From the IMG/VR virus record IMGVR_UViG_3300017971_000719, positions 1 to 25,444 of that record: a DNA stretch of 25,444 nucleotides; one strand, 5' to 3'. The position numbers were made by a program, and so were the translations under genes. Shown one piece after another: positions 1,940-14,064 of the stretch. The notes under the pieces are model-generated. The model did no database searches, was not told the DNA's origin, and was given only the letters and a program-made list of their open reading frames with translations. This DNA is from a virus. Numbering within the stretch: position 1 is the first letter of the stretch; each line of letters begins with the position of its first letter.

Positions 1940-2031
1940 CTCTGCTACTATGGTAACGCAGTGATGGCGTCAACTTGTCGTTGTCGCCATGAGTCGTAGT
2001 GACGACGGCCACTTGTCGTCGAGTAGCAGAG
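1940..2031. repeat. 10-bp inverted repeat bracketing the leader of the terminase operon
   Basis: CTCTGCTACT at 1940-1949 is exactly complementary to AGTAGCAGAG at 2022-2031, 72 bp apart, just before the gene at 2039. The DNA between holds three TTGTCG words (1975, 1981, 2013) and a weak promoter-like pair, TTGTCG 1975-1980 and TAGTGA 1997-2002, spaced 16 bp. The 156-bp gap 1883-2038 contains no gene. It may be an operator or a long-range RNA stem controlling the packaging operon. Confidence 0.35.
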
Positions 2032-2038
2032 TGTGAGT

Positions 2039-2740
2039 ATGTCACAGAAGATCCCATTGCAGACTCCGAAGCCTGTCGACCGCTATGAGGGGGTGACAGT
2101 GCTGATGGAGACATTCGTCGATCGTCTCATCAACTCACCGGTCGGTGACGAGGTTCAGGAGCGTCTCGCGAAGGGGTGGCCTCTCGAGTCGCTGGCAGAG
2201 TTCGTCCACAATCAAGGAGAGATGCAGGACTGCTCACAGCAGGTCGTGTGTCGTGTTCTGGCCACGATGCGTGACCACATGACTCCCGTGGAGAAAGCGC
2301 AGGCGCTTCCAACGACAGTCAAACGCGCCGTCGAGTATGTGGATCACGGCATCGATGTGTTGATGGAGCTGAAGGATCTCTACGCGATGCAGCGAGAGCG
2401 CATCCACATTGATTTTTCTCTCGAGAAAGCCAGCCGCAAGCTGCTTCCCACGACGCACCGCGAGGTCAGGGTGGCGATGGATCTGCTGTCCAAGTACGCG
2501 CAGGTGCAGATGGACTTCGGCTTGGTCAAGAGGCAGCTCGGAACCGTCGAGGTCGAGGAGTCTGACCGGCGAGCGATCCCTGGCTGCAGCGACAAGGTGA
2601 GTACCGCGATGGCCGACCCGAAACGGCGCCAGAGGCTGCTCGGTGTGCTGCACCGCCTCACTGCACTGGAAGACAAATCCATGGAGGAGAACACCATCAC
2701 GATCGACACCGAGCCAGATAACGCCGAGGACGAGCAATGA
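2039..2740 (+). CDS. possible terminase small subunit
   Basis: The frame gives 233 residues from ATG 2039; a GTG at 2033 is an in-frame alternative, and neither has a strong Shine-Dalgarno. It overlaps the terminase large subunit by ATGA (2737-2740), suggesting translational coupling. Residues ~45-60 (RLAKGWPLESLAEFVHNQ) could form a helix-turn-helix of the kind small terminases use to bind packaging sites. The rest is mostly helical, including a charged segment around residues 100-165 (LYAMQRERIHIDFSLEKA), and ends in an acidic tail. The call rests on position and coupling rather than a recognised domain; an unrelated DNA-packaging cofactor is equally possible. Confidence 0.42.
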   Translation: MSQKIPLQTPKPVDRYEGVTVLMETFVDRLINSPVGDEVQERLAKGWPLESLAEFVHNQGEMQDCSQQVVCRVLATMRDHMTPVEKAQALPTTVKRAVEYVDHGIDVLMELKDLYAMQRERIHIDFSLEKASRKLLPTTHREVRVAMDLLSKYAQVQMDFGLVKRQLGTVEVEESDRRAIPGCSDKVSTAMADPKRRQRLLGVLHRLTALEDKSMEENTITIDTEPDNAEDEQ

Positions 2741-5700
2741 TTATCGACAACGGTGGTCGAGCATCGAGCATCCAGACGCGAGAGGAGTTGGAAGCGCTGC
2801 TGCGTGGCGATTTCGAGCAGATGACTACGGAGGATCAAGAGGTTCTGTTGGAGCTGCTCGAGATCATGGGAGAAGGAAAGGCGGCAGCGCCAGCGCTCGA
2901 GGCAATCCAGGCGGCCGACTACAAGCGCGAGGTCGTCGACGTCGAGACGTTCGTCACGCACAAGTACTTTCTTGGTGAGACGTGCAAGGACCTCTATCCC
3001 GTCCTGATGGCCGATCTGAAAGAGATATTCTCCGGCGACTACAACGAGATCATCTACACGGGCTCGATCGGGCTCGACTCGATCATTCAGGAGGCCGATG
3101 GAGGTCTTCCCACGCTGAGAGAGCGCCTGGGCAAGCACGGTCCGGTGACGGTGATGCTCGATAATGAGCAGGGCACGTCGCCAACGGAGCCCGCCCACAA
3201 CTCGGGCATCAAGCCTGTGATGCGTCTGACGCTGAAGAACGGCATGCAGCTCGACCTGACGCCAGACCACGAGGTGCGTGTCTGGCGTGGGACCGACTAT
3301 GCCTGGGTGCCGGCGGAGAAGCTGACGACAGACGACTTTGTCGTGACGCCGAGGCTCATCCACACGGAGCCGTCTTCGGACGTGCCGCCCGAGCGGGCTG
3401 CCGACATCGCCCGAGAGGACATTGAGTCTGGTGCCGATCACATCCGCGACGTGGTCTGTCGGGCATCTCTCGAGTCCGTGCAGGCCTATCTGTCGGTGGT
3501 ACTCTCGCAGGCCATTGTTCCGCGGCCAACGATCGGGAGGCTCGGAAACTGGTCGAAGGACTCGATCTACCAGTGCAAGTACAGCTACCGCCACGACAGC
3601 GAGCGGTTCATCCGTCAGCTGCAGCTGCTACTGCTAAGGTTCGGCATCCGCGCCACGGTTCGATTTCATCCAAAGTACGAACCCAAGCGTTGCAGCCGGG
3701 CATACTGGGAGATCGAGATCAACGGCATTGCCGACGACATTTTCAAGTGCTTGCGCCTCTTTGGCGTGTCCGATCGCTCCGATCGCGATCGAGAGAGCAG
3801 TGAGTTGCTTCTGCAGCATGCTGCCAACCCCGAGCGGCGAGTGAAGAGCTCGCTGCTACCGTTCACCTACGGCGACGCCCAACAGCTGCTCAAGAAAGGC
3901 GGCGCCAAGATGCGCAAGCCGTGGCCGTTCGCTCGCAAGCCCCGAGTGGAGGAGCGTGTCTCGAGGCACGCTCTGGACAAGCTCTATACCTCTGTGAAGG
4001 GGGCAAAGCGCCGCCTGCTCGACGAGATGGTGGCAAAAATCTACGACGAGGTCGGGTTTGAGCAGGTGGTGTCGATCGAACGCCGCGAGCTTTCCATCAC
4101 GGTGGGGGACATCGGGGCGCACAACGGCAATCGGTTCATCGCGAACGGCCTAAGTGTGCATAATTCCATCGGATTCGGGAAGTGCGTCGATGGTGATACG
4201 GAGGTCTTTGACGTCGCAACTGGCAAGCGATGTCGTGTACGAGATCTCTCCGCTCTGCGGGTGCAGTCTTTCTCGTCCGAGGGACAGTCTCGAGTGTCCG
4301 ACGCCACGGCATTTCCTTCCGGGGAGAAGCCGTGCGTCACGATGACGTTGATGAGCGGTCAGACGTTGACACTGAGCACAGACCACCCGGTGCTCACGGG
4401 GCGCGGGTGGGTCCATGCCGAGGACGTGTCGCTGTCGGATCTCGTGGCGACACCAAGGTCACTGCCTGAGCCTGAAAAGGCGCTCGACGTCCCCGACGAC
4501 GAGGTGGTGGTCGTTGGCTATCTACTGGCAGATGGTGGATGCACAGGACCGTCGCCGACTTTCACGAACATGACGCCGTCGGTGCTGAGAGAGTACGCGG
4601 ATTGCACGGATAGACTCGCGCAGAGCAACAGAATGTATGACTCCGCGGAGTCGTCGTCTGTGCCTGTGAAGAACCCGAATGCCGGACGTGCGATGACCTA
4701 TCGTACACGTGGCGTGCAGTGGTTCGTCGACAAATATGATCTCAGACACACGTCTCGAGAGAAGCGGATACCTGCGGAGTTCTACGGTCTCACGGAAAGG
4801 CAGATCGGGCTGCTGCTGAACCGCATCTGGGCTTGTGACGGTAGTCTCAACATGCACTCGCGTGTGGCAGAGATCGGACTCGCCTCTGAGCTGATGATCC
4901 GAGACATACAGTTTCTCCTTCTCCGTCTCGGTGTGAATGCTCGGTACGCCAAGTGTCGAAAGACCTACACGCACAAGGGGGAGAAACGTTCGGCCACGGC
5001 ATATCGTCTGCACGTCAGTGGCCGAGAGAACATGCTACGCTTTCTTGACGTCGTCGGCGACATTATTGGGAAGGAAGACAAGTGTTGGGCGATGAGGGAT
5101 CGGTGCCTGGCGGTCGACAACACGCGCGAGTCGACGAACACGGACGTGGTGCCGATCGACAAGGAGCGTCTGTACGAGGTGTTCCGGGAGGTCGAGCGTC
5201 GCGGCGTGAAGGTCAGGAGCAAGTATCAGCTCGGTGGACGCCACTGCAGCAGAAGTCGCTTTCAGCGTCTCGTGGAGGAGTCCCGGTACGATGGCGAGTG
5301 GTCCTGGTATGCAGACTCGGATCTGCTCTGGCAGCGCGTTCGAAACATCGAGGATGCTGGTACTCGTGAGGTCTTCGACCTGAGCGTGCCGGGAGACCAC
5401 AACTTTGTGGCGAATGGCGTGGTGATCCACAACACCTTCGCCTGCTCGATCGGCGTCTGCTACGTGCTGTACCAGCTCTCTTGCATGCACAAGCCCGCGG
5501 CGACTTTCAACCTGGCCCCGGAAACTCCGATCACTGTGCTCGGACTTTCTGCGTCCGAGGACCTGGCGAAGGAGGTCGTGCTCAAGAACGTGATCGGCAA
5601 GATCGCGCAGTCCAAGTATTTCAGCCAGAATTTCCGGCCGCGCATCACGCAGCGGAACATTCGATTTCCGAACGGCGTGACGATGTGGGCACGTGCCACT

Positions 5701-7134
5701 ACGCCGCGCTCGGCTCTCGGTATGAACCCTGTGTGCGCTCTCGTCGACGAGATCGACTTCATGCCGAAGCGCCGCAAGAAGAGTCAGCAGCGTTTCGGTG
5801 TCGTGAATATGTCGAAGGAAATCTACGACTCCATCACACGACGTATCAAGTCTCGTTTCGGTCGATACGGTAAGTTGTTCCTGCCGTGTTCGAAGAGCAC
5901 CAACGACTCGTTTTTGTCGCGTCGGCTCAAGGAAGCCGAGAATGATCCAAACGTTTTCGTGCGCGATTACGCGCTCTGGAACGCTAAACCTGGTGACTAC
6001 TCGAAGAAGAAGTTCTGGGTTCTGTGTGGCAACGAGCAGGTACCGTCACGCATTCTTCCTGACGAGGAGGTTGAGTCCATTCAGGAGGACCAACCCGAGC
6101 GCACAACGCTGCTTGAGATCCCGCTCGACTTTCGTGGCGAGTTCGAGTCGGATCTTGAAGGCAGCATTCGAGACTTGGGAGGGGTTTCTACGGTCACGTT
6201 CTCTCCTTTCATCCAACGCAGACACAAGGTCTACGAGATGGAGGATGAGGACCGAAAGCATCCCTTCAGCAAGTGGCGATACGAGATCGGAAAGCCTGGA
6301 CACTTTTTGTGGGATGAACTCACCACGGAGATCGCAGGACTCGACGCAGATGGTCGAGTCGTGTACACGCGCAAGCCCAAGTTACATCCAGAAGCGCCTC
6401 GTCATGCGCACTTCGACCCGGCGTTGAACCAATGTTCGGCTGGATTATGCATCACGCACCAGTACGGCATGACTCACGTTCGGCGTCGAAACAAGGAGAT
6501 GGCGCTCTACGACGAAGAGGCGCCACTTTTCTTTGTGGATCTCATCCTCGAGATCGTACCACCGGTCGGTGGCGAACTCGAGTTCGCCATGTACCGGCAG
6601 CTGGTCTACGACTTCGTGGAGCACGGGTACCCGATCGTGAGTGTGTCGATGGACGGCTTTCAGTCTGTCGATGCGCTGCAGATCCTGAGTGATCGTGGGT
6701 ATCACACCAGTCGGATCTCACTGGACAAGACGTGGGATCCGTATCAGCACGCAAAAAGCGCACTCTACGAGAACCGCGTGAAGTGCTACTATCACCCCGA
6801 GCTGTTCCGTCAGCTTCAGAAACTGGAGGCCGACTGGGAGAAGAGAAAGGTTCTCGCGCCCGAAGGGGAACTCAAGGACGTAGCAGACTCATTTGCAGGC
6901 TCGCTCTGGGGATCCTATCACATGCCCGCATATTTCCCTCTTCCACTTCTTGTGGGGAACTCCTCTTTCAAGGTACCACTTGGCAAGACGCAGGAGACCG
7001 AGGGTCGACAGCGGGTGGTCCCTGCCATCCCAGGCGTGAGTATTGAGGCGCAGATCGCGAACAACGACTATGTGAACCAGACCAGCACGGACAATCCGGT
7101 GATGAATTTCTTCCGGTCTCGTGGTCTCTGGTAG
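2737..7134 (+). CDS. terL: terminase large subunit (packaging ATPase-nuclease) carrying two inteins
   Basis: The 1465-residue precursor contains a phage terminase large subunit, the motor that pumps DNA into the prohead and cuts the concatemer. Removing inteins at residues 110-476 and 483-899 leaves 109 + 6 + 566 = 681 residues, a normal TerL length. The spliced Walker A is G109-SIGFGK-T900. Walker B is LVDEIDF (D1004, E1005). The RuvC-like nuclease shows candidate acidic residues D1227 (HFDPALNQ), D1306 (SMDGFQS) and D1381/D1384 (KDVADSFAG). The start overlaps the upstream stop by ATGA, and the portal follows 18 bp after the stop. Without splicing the P-loop is disrupted, so the ATPase should be inactive until both inteins leave. 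Confidence 0.93.
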   Translation: MIIDNGGRASSIQTREELEALLRGDFEQMTTEDQEVLLELLEIMGEGKAAAPALEAIQAADYKREVVDVETFVTHKYFLGETCKDLYPVLMADLKEIFSGDYNEIIYTGSIGLDSIIQEADGGLPTLRERLGKHGPVTVMLDNEQGTSPTEPAHNSGIKPVMRLTLKNGMQLDLTPDHEVRVWRGTDYAWVPAEKLTTDDFVVTPRLIHTEPSSDVPPERAADIAREDIESGADHIRDVVCRASLESVQAYLSVVLSQAIVPRPTIGRLGNWSKDSIYQCKYSYRHDSERFIRQLQLLLLRFGIRATVRFHPKYEPKRCSRAYWEIEINGIADDIFKCLRLFGVSDRSDRDRESSELLLQHAANPERRVKSSLLPFTYGDAQQLLKKGGAKMRKPWPFARKPRVEERVSRHALDKLYTSVKGAKRRLLDEMVAKIYDEVGFEQVVSIERRELSITVGDIGAHNGNRFIANGLSVHNSIGFGKCVDGDTEVFDVATGKRCRVRDLSALRVQSFSSEGQSRVSDATAFPSGEKPCVTMTLMSGQTLTLSTDHPVLTGRGWVHAEDVSLSDLVATPRSLPEPEKALDVPDDEVVVVGYLLADGGCTGPSPTFTNMTPSVLREYADCTDRLAQSNRMYDSAESSSVPVKNPNAGRAMTYRTRGVQWFVDKYDLRHTSREKRIPAEFYGLTERQIGLLLNRIWACDGSLNMHSRVAEIGLASELMIRDIQFLLLRLGVNARYAKCRKTYTHKGEKRSATAYRLHVSGRENMLRFLDVVGDIIGKEDKCWAMRDRCLAVDNTRESTNTDVVPIDKERLYEVFREVERRGVKVRSKYQLGGRHCSRSRFQRLVEESRYDGEWSWYADSDLLWQRVRNIEDAGTREVFDLSVPGDHNFVANGVVIHNTFACSIGVCYVLYQLSCMHKPAATFNLAPETPITVLGLSASEDLAKEVVLKNVIGKIAQSKYFSQNFRPRITQRNIRFPNGVTMWARATTPRSALGMNPVCALVDEIDFMPKRRKKSQQRFGVVNMSKEIYDSITRRIKSRFGRYGKLFLPCSKSTNDSFLSRRLKEAENDPNVFVRDYALWNAKPGDYSKKKFWVLCGNEQVPSRILPDEEVESIQEDQPERTTLLEIPLDFRGEFESDLEGSIRDLGGVSTVTFSPFIQRRHKVYEMEDEDRKHPFSKWRYEIGKPGHFLWDELTTEIAGLDADGRVVYTRKPKLHPEAPRHAHFDPALNQCSAGLCITHQYGMTHVRRRNKEMALYDEEAPLFFVDLILEIVPPVGGELEFAMYRQLVYDFVEHGYPIVSVSMDGFQSVDALQILSDRGYHTSRISLDKTWDPYQHAKSALYENRVKCYYHPELFRQLQKLEADWEKRKVLAPEGELKDVADSFAGSLWGSYHMPAYFPLPLLVGNSSFKVPLGKTQETEGRQRVVPAIPGVSIEAQIANNDYVNQTSTDNPVMNFFRSRGLW
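3064..4164 (+). mobile_element. intein 1 in TerL Walker A (Ser1 type, endonuclease degenerate)
   Basis: Residues 110-476 (367 aa) interrupt the terminase after G109. The element starts with Ser (SIGLDSII, matching intein block A), has block B LTPDHEV, and ends in FIANGLSVHN followed by Ser as the +1 residue. Splicing would therefore use serine at both junctions. The first three intein residues (SIG) repeat the first three of the C-extein, so the boundary could be misplaced by eye; only a cut before Ser110 both restores the P-loop and leaves a valid +1 nucleophile. A LAGLIDADG-like region is present (QAYLSVVLSQAIV, then RQLQLLLLRFGI), but the catalytic Asp is missing, so homing is probably dead while splicing is kept. 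Confidence 0.85.
4183..5433 (+). mobile_element. intein 2 in TerL Walker A (Cys1 type, LAGLIDADG endonuclease apparently intact)
   Basis: Residues 483-899 (417 aa) sit between the Lys and Thr of the P-loop. Block A is CVDGDTEVFD, block B LSTDHPV, and the C-terminal blocks are VFDLSVPGDHNFVANGVVIHN-like, ending His898-Asn899 with Thr900 as +1 nucleophile. The homing endonuclease has both LAGLIDADG motifs with their acidic residues: VGYLLADGG (D599) and LLNRIWACDGS (D701). It is therefore likely to be a mobile intein that cleaves inteinless terL alleles at the conserved P-loop DNA. It begins only six codons after intein 1. Confidence 0.93.
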
Positions 7135-13138: not shown

Positions 13139-13164
13139 CGGCACCTTTGCCCAAGGAGGTGCCG
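13139..13164 (+). promoter_or_regulatory. hairpin covering the ribosome site of the homing endonuclease
   Basis: CGGCACC (13139-13145) pairs exactly with GGTGCCG (13158-13164), which abuts ATG 13165 and includes the end of the AAGGAGGT Shine-Dalgarno (13153-13160). This could lower or time translation. Comparable sequestering hairpins are known for homing endonucleases in T4-like phages, where late promoters inside the hairpin bypass them. Confidence 0.55.
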
Positions 13165-14064
13165 ATGGCTCGCGTCTTGTTCAACTTCTTCGACGACTGG
13201 TCTGACGAACTTGCCTGGTGGCTGGGCCTCACGCTCGGCGACGGCAACGTCCACCGCGGGAAGAAGTACTACCGTGTCTCGCTGTGCGGGACGTTCGAGA
13301 CCACATCCCGCTGGCTCGCGCTGTTTGCTCCAGAGCGCAGGCCAATGGAGTTCAAGAACTCGCCTGGAACCTTCCAGGCCACCGTCGACAGCAAGCAGCT
13401 CGTGGAGCTGTGCGAGTCGCAGTTCGGCATGGTCGGACCAAAGGCCGACAGCCTACCGTGGCCCGTGAGCCTGCCGAAGAAGCACCGACGCGCGTTCATT
13501 CGTGGACTCTGGGACAGCGACGGCTCATTGTCCGTCGACATGCGTGAGGGTCGGCGTGGTGGCCCGTGCTGTCGTGCCAAGTACACGACGGCCACACACG
13601 ACTTCGCGGTGCAGTTGCAGAAGCTCGTGAGGACGTGCATCCCGTCGATGTCGGACGTCAAGGTTTCGCGCTGGACGACGCCGCTTGGCAAGTTCAAGAC
13701 TCAGCGCACGTGGTACAGCTTCGTGTGGAACGGGCTGAATGCGTGGCGCCTGGCGAGGTGGTTGTACAGGGACGCGCCCGAGGCTCTGCGTAACGAGGAC
13801 AAGTACAACGCCTATCTTCGGTTCGAGGCGCTGCGCGGCGAGGAGTACGAGCGCCGCATCATCGTCGAGCGCCGCATGAAGAAGCACCGCGCGGAGAACG
13901 CTGCTCGGCTGGCTGAGTTCTGGTCAGACGGCCAGCCCCTCAAGGATGGGGCCGACAAGGTCTGCAAGCAGTGCGGCAGTCTGCAGCTCAAGGCCAAGGG
14001 GCTGTGCGAGAGCTGCTACAAGAAGGAGTGGCGCAGGTGTCGAAAGCAGGTAGGCGGACGATGA
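13165..14064 (+). CDS. free-standing LAGLIDADG homing endonuclease with zinc-ribbon tail
   Basis: The 299-residue protein carries two LAGLIDADG motifs, LAWWLGLTLGDGN near residues 14-26 and FIRGLWDSDGS near 112-122, both with the acidic residue. Monomeric enzymes of this type cut long DNA targets and copy their gene into them. The C-terminus is a zinc ribbon (CKQCGSL...GLCESC), likely extra DNA binding. ATG 13165 is preferred over the upstream TTG 13147 because it follows AAGGAGGT at 13153-13160. The gene sits between capsid and downstream genes with its own promoter, as expected of an inserted element, and ends 15 bp from the convergent neighbour. A tail duplicate occurs at 15149-15310. Confidence 0.87.
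   Translation: MARVLFNFFDDWSDELAWWLGLTLGDGNVHRGKKYYRVSLCGTFETTSRWLALFAPERRPMEFKNSPGTFQATVDSKQLVELCESQFGMVGPKADSLPWPVSLPKKHRRAFIRGLWDSDGSLSVDMREGRRGGPCCRAKYTTATHDFAVQLQKLVRTCIPSMSDVKVSRWTTPLGKFKTQRTWYSFVWNGLNAWRLARWLYRDAPEALRNEDKYNAYLRFEALRGEEYERRIIVERRMKKHRAENAARLAEFWSDGQPLKDGADKVCKQCGSLQLKAKGLCESCYKKEWRRCRKQVGGR

Follow-up and report, generated by a model that had tools for sequence, protein, structure and literature searches.

Two inteins flank a six-residue extein in the Walker A loop of a viral terminase large subunit gene

The P-loop VMA-b inteins TliVMA and PhoVMA consist of a Hint domain and a LAGLIDADG endonuclease and lie inside the Walker A motif, each as a single insertion in an archaeal ATPase subunit. 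Among mycobacteriophages, the terminase large subunit (TerL) is the commonest intein host and two P-loop sites one residue apart are reported as separate insertions, at least in the accessible part of the survey (Kelley et al. 2016, PMC5050341). Two mobile inteins are also known from the ATPase gene MCM, one of which follows the Walker A Lys. Each is specific for a site of its own, alleles with one and with both inteins exist side by side, and the neighbours impede one another's homing if neither site is occupied (Turgeman-Grott et al. 2023, PMC10643990). Further host proteins contain more than one intein, each splicing separately: DnaB of Mycobacterium smegmatis has two (PMC6195587), and PMC8966425 quotes two more pairs, with spacers of 85 residues in the T. 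kodakaraensis polymerase and 48 residues in P. abyssi CDC21.

The window analysed here is the whole of a 25,444-base stretch of DNA, metagenomic viral record IMGVR_UViG_3300017971_000719. The Walker A loop of its terL gene, G-SIGFGK-T, is interrupted twice, at either end of SIGFGK:

2737..7134, + strand: terL precursor ORF, a single stop-free frame of 1465 aa (681 aa minus both inteins)
2737..3063, + strand: N-extein, aa 1-109; its C-terminal end ...EIIYTG supplies the first Gly of Walker A
3064..4164, + strand: intein 1, aa 110-476, 367 aa; Ser1, TPDH block B (T175/H178), VHN, +1 Ser477
4165..4182, + strand: middle extein SIGFGK, aa 477-482; positions +1 to +3 of intein 1 and -3 to -1 of intein 2
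4183..5433, + strand: intein 2, aa 483-899, 417 aa; Cys1, STDH block B at 547-550 (H550), IHN, +1 Thr900
5434..7134, + strand: C-extein, aa 900-1465; Walker A Thr, Walker B ALVDEIDF, conserved acidic residues of the C-terminal nuclease

Inteins, even several per gene, are known; two in the same P-loop, set apart by an extein of six residues, appear to be a new arrangement. As in mycobacteriophage TerL1-a and TerL1-b, several of which carry endonucleases, the inteins sit in Walker A of a phage TerL. In the accessible text of that survey, site 2 (between Lys and Thr) is the position described for TerL1-a, site 1 (between the first Gly and Ser) is not among the described mycobacteriophage sites a-g, and co-occupancy is not described for the close TerL sites (PMC5050341). 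Unlike the MCM sites, which fall in separate regions of the helicase domain, those of the window are 18 bp apart and belong to a phage packaging motor (PMC10643990). The excerpts on DnaB, the T. kodakaraensis polymerase and CDC21 give spacers that run to tens of residues at least; that of the window has six (PMC6195587, PMC8966425). The original prediction had called so small a spacer unusual; the spacers quoted in PMC8966425 are 48 and 85 residues. No two inteins as close as six residues were recognised in the literature searched, which covers subscription journals thinly and some sources in part; six residues can provisionally be taken as the record.

The intein and extein boundaries proved exact as first proposed (residues 110-476, 477-482 and 483-899 of one stop-free 1465-aa ORF), and the distinct nucleophiles (Ser1/+1 Ser versus Cys1/+1 Thr) are present as claimed. 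Joining residues 1-109, 477-482 and 900-1465 in silico yields a 681-aa protein. Its loop, TGSIGFGKT, aligns gap-free with the intein-free TerL loops TGGIGSAKT, TGGIGTGKT, TGAIGIGKT and TGSIGQGKS, in keeping with the claim that G-SIGFGK-T is restored only after both excisions. Intein-free phage TerL loops follow TG[SAG]IGxxK[TS], and the gap-free empty loops include those of the nearest relatives, L016 in the clade of the window and L118/L119 in the clade of a second double carrier, L076. The boundaries are fixed because other ends would add to, or cut into, this family-conserved motif, and relatives with an intein at just one of the two junctions support them as well. Intein 1 itself opens with SIG, as does the extein downstream of it (window 3064-3087 versus 4165-4188), and in L078/L079 this SIG repeat is an 11-bp perfect direct repeat (L078 6001-6024 and 7270-7293). 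A direct repeat flanking intein 1 may permit precise deletion of the intein; it may also be due to chance.

The assignment of the host gene to terL was confirmed by agreement between PHROG phrog_2, terminase large subunit (E 5e-7), and 358 phage records (~28-33% identity), all matched by the spliced 681-aa product. The Pfam Terminase_6N score of the window TerL is below cut-off. In pairwise alignments the spliced protein keeps Walker A, Walker B and the nuclease acidic residues as invariant columns. The neighbouring genes encode a portal, a head maturation protease and a major head protein, which fits a packaging and head cluster.

Motifs and conservation lead us to infer that both elements splice. 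The Pfam model Intein_splicing (PF14890, curated cut-off 35.8) scores 44.9 bits for intein 1 and 69.5 bits for intein 2. Intein 2 also matches the NCBIfam intein N- and C-terminal splicing regions, with TIGR01443 above cut-off; intein 1 gives a weak score of 14.9 bits (cut-off 24.5) with the N-terminal region model and has no block F histidine of the HNF motif. Intein 1 is an in-frame insertion at a conserved site, absent from homologues, and its catalytic positions are kept in four relatives, with the exceptions of Cys1 and of Glu for the TPDH Asp in L081. Its predicted structure has pLDDT >80, mostly >90, in the splicing part, and the best PDB matches are TliVMA (P-loop intein, E 3e-13) and PI-PfuI. 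Intein 1 resembles TliVMA and PhoVMA in placing Hint and LAGLIDADG parts within Walker A. In a model of precursor residues 61-960 (pLDDT 75.6, pTM 0.54) two folded Hint domains are seen; the hexapeptide between them has low confidence, as for a flexible linker, and the model is too moderate to place the domains relative to each other. The two inteins are ~23-24% identical and, judged by sequence, are unrelated beyond their common fold. The idea that the order of splicing matters found no support: either order gives the same product, each intein keeps three native residues on its hexapeptide side, and both single-site forms occur naturally.

The two inteins differ in their endonuclease parts. 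Intein 1 of the window lacks ~70 endonuclease residues, including the second DOD motif, and so does not show the two DOD motifs with acidic residues that mark a LAGLIDADG endonuclease. LAGLIDADG_3 scores 22.0 bits (cut-off 22.5) in one fragment that spans profile positions 26-56 only, versus 66.9, 78.7 and 67.1 bits over the full profile in intein 1 of L076, L078 and L081. Compared with L076/L078, the splicing part is 50-60% identical and the endonuclease part 24-31%. This contrast points to an intein 1 endonuclease that has decayed, the element being retained for splicing once homing ceased. In intein 2, LAGLIDADG PF14528 scores 43.5 bits and both DOD motifs are intact (YLLADGG, RIWACDGS), from which its endonuclease is predicted to be active. 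A free-standing LAGLIDADG endonuclease-like ORF (31.9 bits) is found at 13147-14064, right after the major head protein gene.

We collected relatives via alignment and profile queries and DNA pattern scans, and counts are therefore biased by targeted sampling. Neither the spliced TerL nor intein 1 by itself found a match when searched directly against viral contigs. A search with intein 2 recovered L013/L014, which carry intein 2 (69% identical) at the Lys-Thr site of a TerL 54% identical to that of the window and have no intein 1. A profile of three exteins led to 58 relatives. Scanning viral contigs for the DNA pattern of HN/SxGxGK/C (slashes mark junctions) gave one other true case, L076, with SIGWGK between inteins of 418 and 405 aa; a second scan with AGY serine gave no true case. 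With a profile built from both copies of intein 1 we found L078, L079 and L081. In these three, intein 1 occurs without intein 2, and Walker A runs straight on after it as SIGFGKS or SVGFGKS. No intein 1 relatives were found in cultured phages or prokaryote genomes.

The comparison with terL genes carrying none or one intein, which had been proposed as a check, thus yielded both kinds. Among ~91 dereplicated TerLs most are empty, ~19 have an intein at site 2 (between Lys and Thr), four at site 1 (between Gly and Ser) and two at both. The occurrence of either intein alone in relatives agrees with the earlier view that the two arrived independently. Neither excess nor avoidance of double occupancy can be read from two doubles in ~91, four site-1 and 19 site-2 cases, numbers that targeted sampling makes uninformative. 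The L089 and L100 genes share 90% DNA identity along their full length, except that a clean 411-aa intein occupies site 2 in one of them and not in the other; hence, insertion or loss at this site is precise.

Further intein-like elements were observed in the relatives. L067 (1098-4418) and L145 (3406-6660) have a third site just upstream of the loop, before Thr-Gly, which makes three insertion sites within ~nine residues; on visual inspection the L067 element resembles the HNH type. Intein-like inserts between Lys and Thr in L007 (Rhodobacter phage RcTiptonus, 1552-4692), L142 and L157 start with Arg or Ala in place of Cys or Ser and resemble class 3 inteins, and the same site in relatives holds class 1. 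At Walker B, the TerLs of L076 and L015/L057/L052 contain a further intein (DE/C ... HN/TNF) with an odd low-complexity interior; in L015 another frame is open there for 489 aa, as if for a nested out-of-frame endonuclease gene, and a small third intein lies near the nuclease end. In L078/L079 (5665-10095) the nuclease domain of TerL holds a second intein, and L013 has, upstream of terL, a DNA polymerase gene with an apparent intein (2006-4867).

To the history of the doubles, the four site-1 and two double cases, all from targeted searches, serve as the basis. In a tree of 91 TerL exteins the window forms a fully supported group with L013, which has an intein at site 2, and the empty L016; L076 falls, again with full support, with L118 and L119, neither of which has an intein in the loop. 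A slower 36-row TerL tree agrees, places L013 as sister of the window (support 97/84) and rejects one clade for both doubles (AU test, p = 1.4e-5). The intein 2 copies also fall into different subfamilies, that of the window with L013, L096 and L123 and that of L076 with L015, L059 and L062. Because the doubles thus occupy different TerL clades and their intein 2 copies different subfamilies, the two were, by parsimony, probably assembled separately from elements that also live alone. The contrary reading, an ancestral double that was inherited vertically and repeatedly lost one intein or both, would explain the similar divergence of the window and L076 in intein 1 (34%), intein 2 (~40%) and extein (32-33%). 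We consider it unlikely: intein 1 of L076 and L078 is closer (52%) than their exteins (39%), the closest relatives of either double lack intein 1, and the intein 2 subfamilies are common to single-intein neighbours. Moreover, the excess of intein 2 over extein identity between the window and L013 differs from the vertical-looking pairs L022/L023, L059/L062 and L121/L144, which are closer in the extein, and suggests that intein 2 of the window and L013 spread by horizontal homing. As to which intein reached the window first, a sister with intein 2 favours intein 2, but the excess identity suggests that intein 2 came by later homing. Co-homing of the pair as one unit is unsupported, the doubles' intein 2 copies being from different subfamilies. 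A co-conversion footprint was also considered (+1 Ser is TCN in the four site-1 carriers and AGC in L118/L119) and found no support; TCN is common in intein-free TerLs (36/57 Ser; Fisher test, p = 0.29).

Other accounts concern the locus itself. Splice residues are present at both outer junctions (Ser110 and Asn899/Thr900), so that residues 110-899 might be read as one large or nested intein, the N-half of intein 1 acting with the C-half of intein 2 and removing SIGFGK too. We give this almost no credence and reject it, since each element has complete splice motifs of its own and is found alone at its own site, and the product, YTG-TFAC, would lack the Walker A conserved in intein-free relatives. 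That the arrangement is an assembly chimera of two alleles with one intein each is equally far-fetched: in its favour is that the window is a single contig, but L076, an unrelated contig with 33% identity in the extein, shows this layout in frame too, on which ground both a chimera and chance were rejected. A dying intein 1 that splices poorly and leaves terL partly or wholly inactive would account for the decayed endonuclease, the absent block F histidine and the weak N-terminal model score. It is nonetheless improbable, as the splicing part is 50-60% conserved with all catalytic positions kept while the endonuclease decays, the frame is open over 4.4 kb and the TerL motifs are intact.

Overall, we suggest that two independently acquired class-1-like inteins very probably sit at both ends of the TerL Walker A hexapeptide and are spliced separately. 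The precursor would be one 1465-aa chain with a broken ATP-binding loop, in which each Hint domain folds and splices alone, in either order. Intein 1 would use Ser1, block B TxxH, Asn476 and Ser477, and intein 2 Cys483, SxxH, Asn899 and Thr900; the hexapeptide would be split three residues each, SIG as the C-extein of intein 1 and FGK as the N-extein of intein 2. Two ligations would then give the 681-aa TerL with G-SIGFGK-T whole. The 18 bp of hexapeptide DNA would belong to both homing sites. The two would behave as separate mobile elements: homing probably brought in or renewed intein 2, and intein 1 would have been acquired separately, lost its endonuclease by decay and now persist through splicing alone. 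Until both inteins splice, the motor would have no ATP site, and it is possible that the broken loop has been put to regulatory use. A plausible accident would be cross-splicing of the outer junctions, which deletes the Walker A hexapeptide; Hint domains at ~24% identity are, however, unlikely to complement each other.

The remainder of the window holds several other features. Upstream of terL are an ORF with a MUG113/T5orf172 domain (481-1299) and a deoxynucleoside kinase-like ORF (1160-1882). Between 14080 and 21917, roughly ten ORFs, on both strands, have in common an N-terminus of the type MSRRELxERLELLEAR and are otherwise unrelated (starts at 14475-, 14617+, 15307+, 16057+, 17338+, 17763+, 19108+, 20582-, 21256- and 21396+); three of them were searched in Pfam with no match. 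The position of these ORFs downstream of the head protease and capsid genes suggests that the shared leader could be a capsid-targeting or pro-peptide leader of internal head proteins.

All four allele states, empty, either site alone and both sites together, are present within one gene family. The distance at which two inteins can coexist, previously open, is here provisionally brought down to six residues, inside the most conserved ATPase motif. A broader proposition, which we offer tentatively and at slightly under an even chance, is that SIGFGK is the smallest known natural middle extein between two full-size inteins, shared by two unrelated mobile elements at three residues (9 bp) each, that such pairs have formed repeatedly in phage TerLs because Hint divergence prevents cross-splicing, and that a single Walker A loop is thus a stable niche for two. 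The family is a natural test bed for the coexistence of neighbouring inteins: it can be asked whether two Hint domains splice independently over a six-residue spacer, whether an endonuclease still recognises a site flanked by another intein and whether inter-intein divergence is needed to avoid cross-splicing. Engineers, in turn, gain naturally paired inteins around a hexapeptide.
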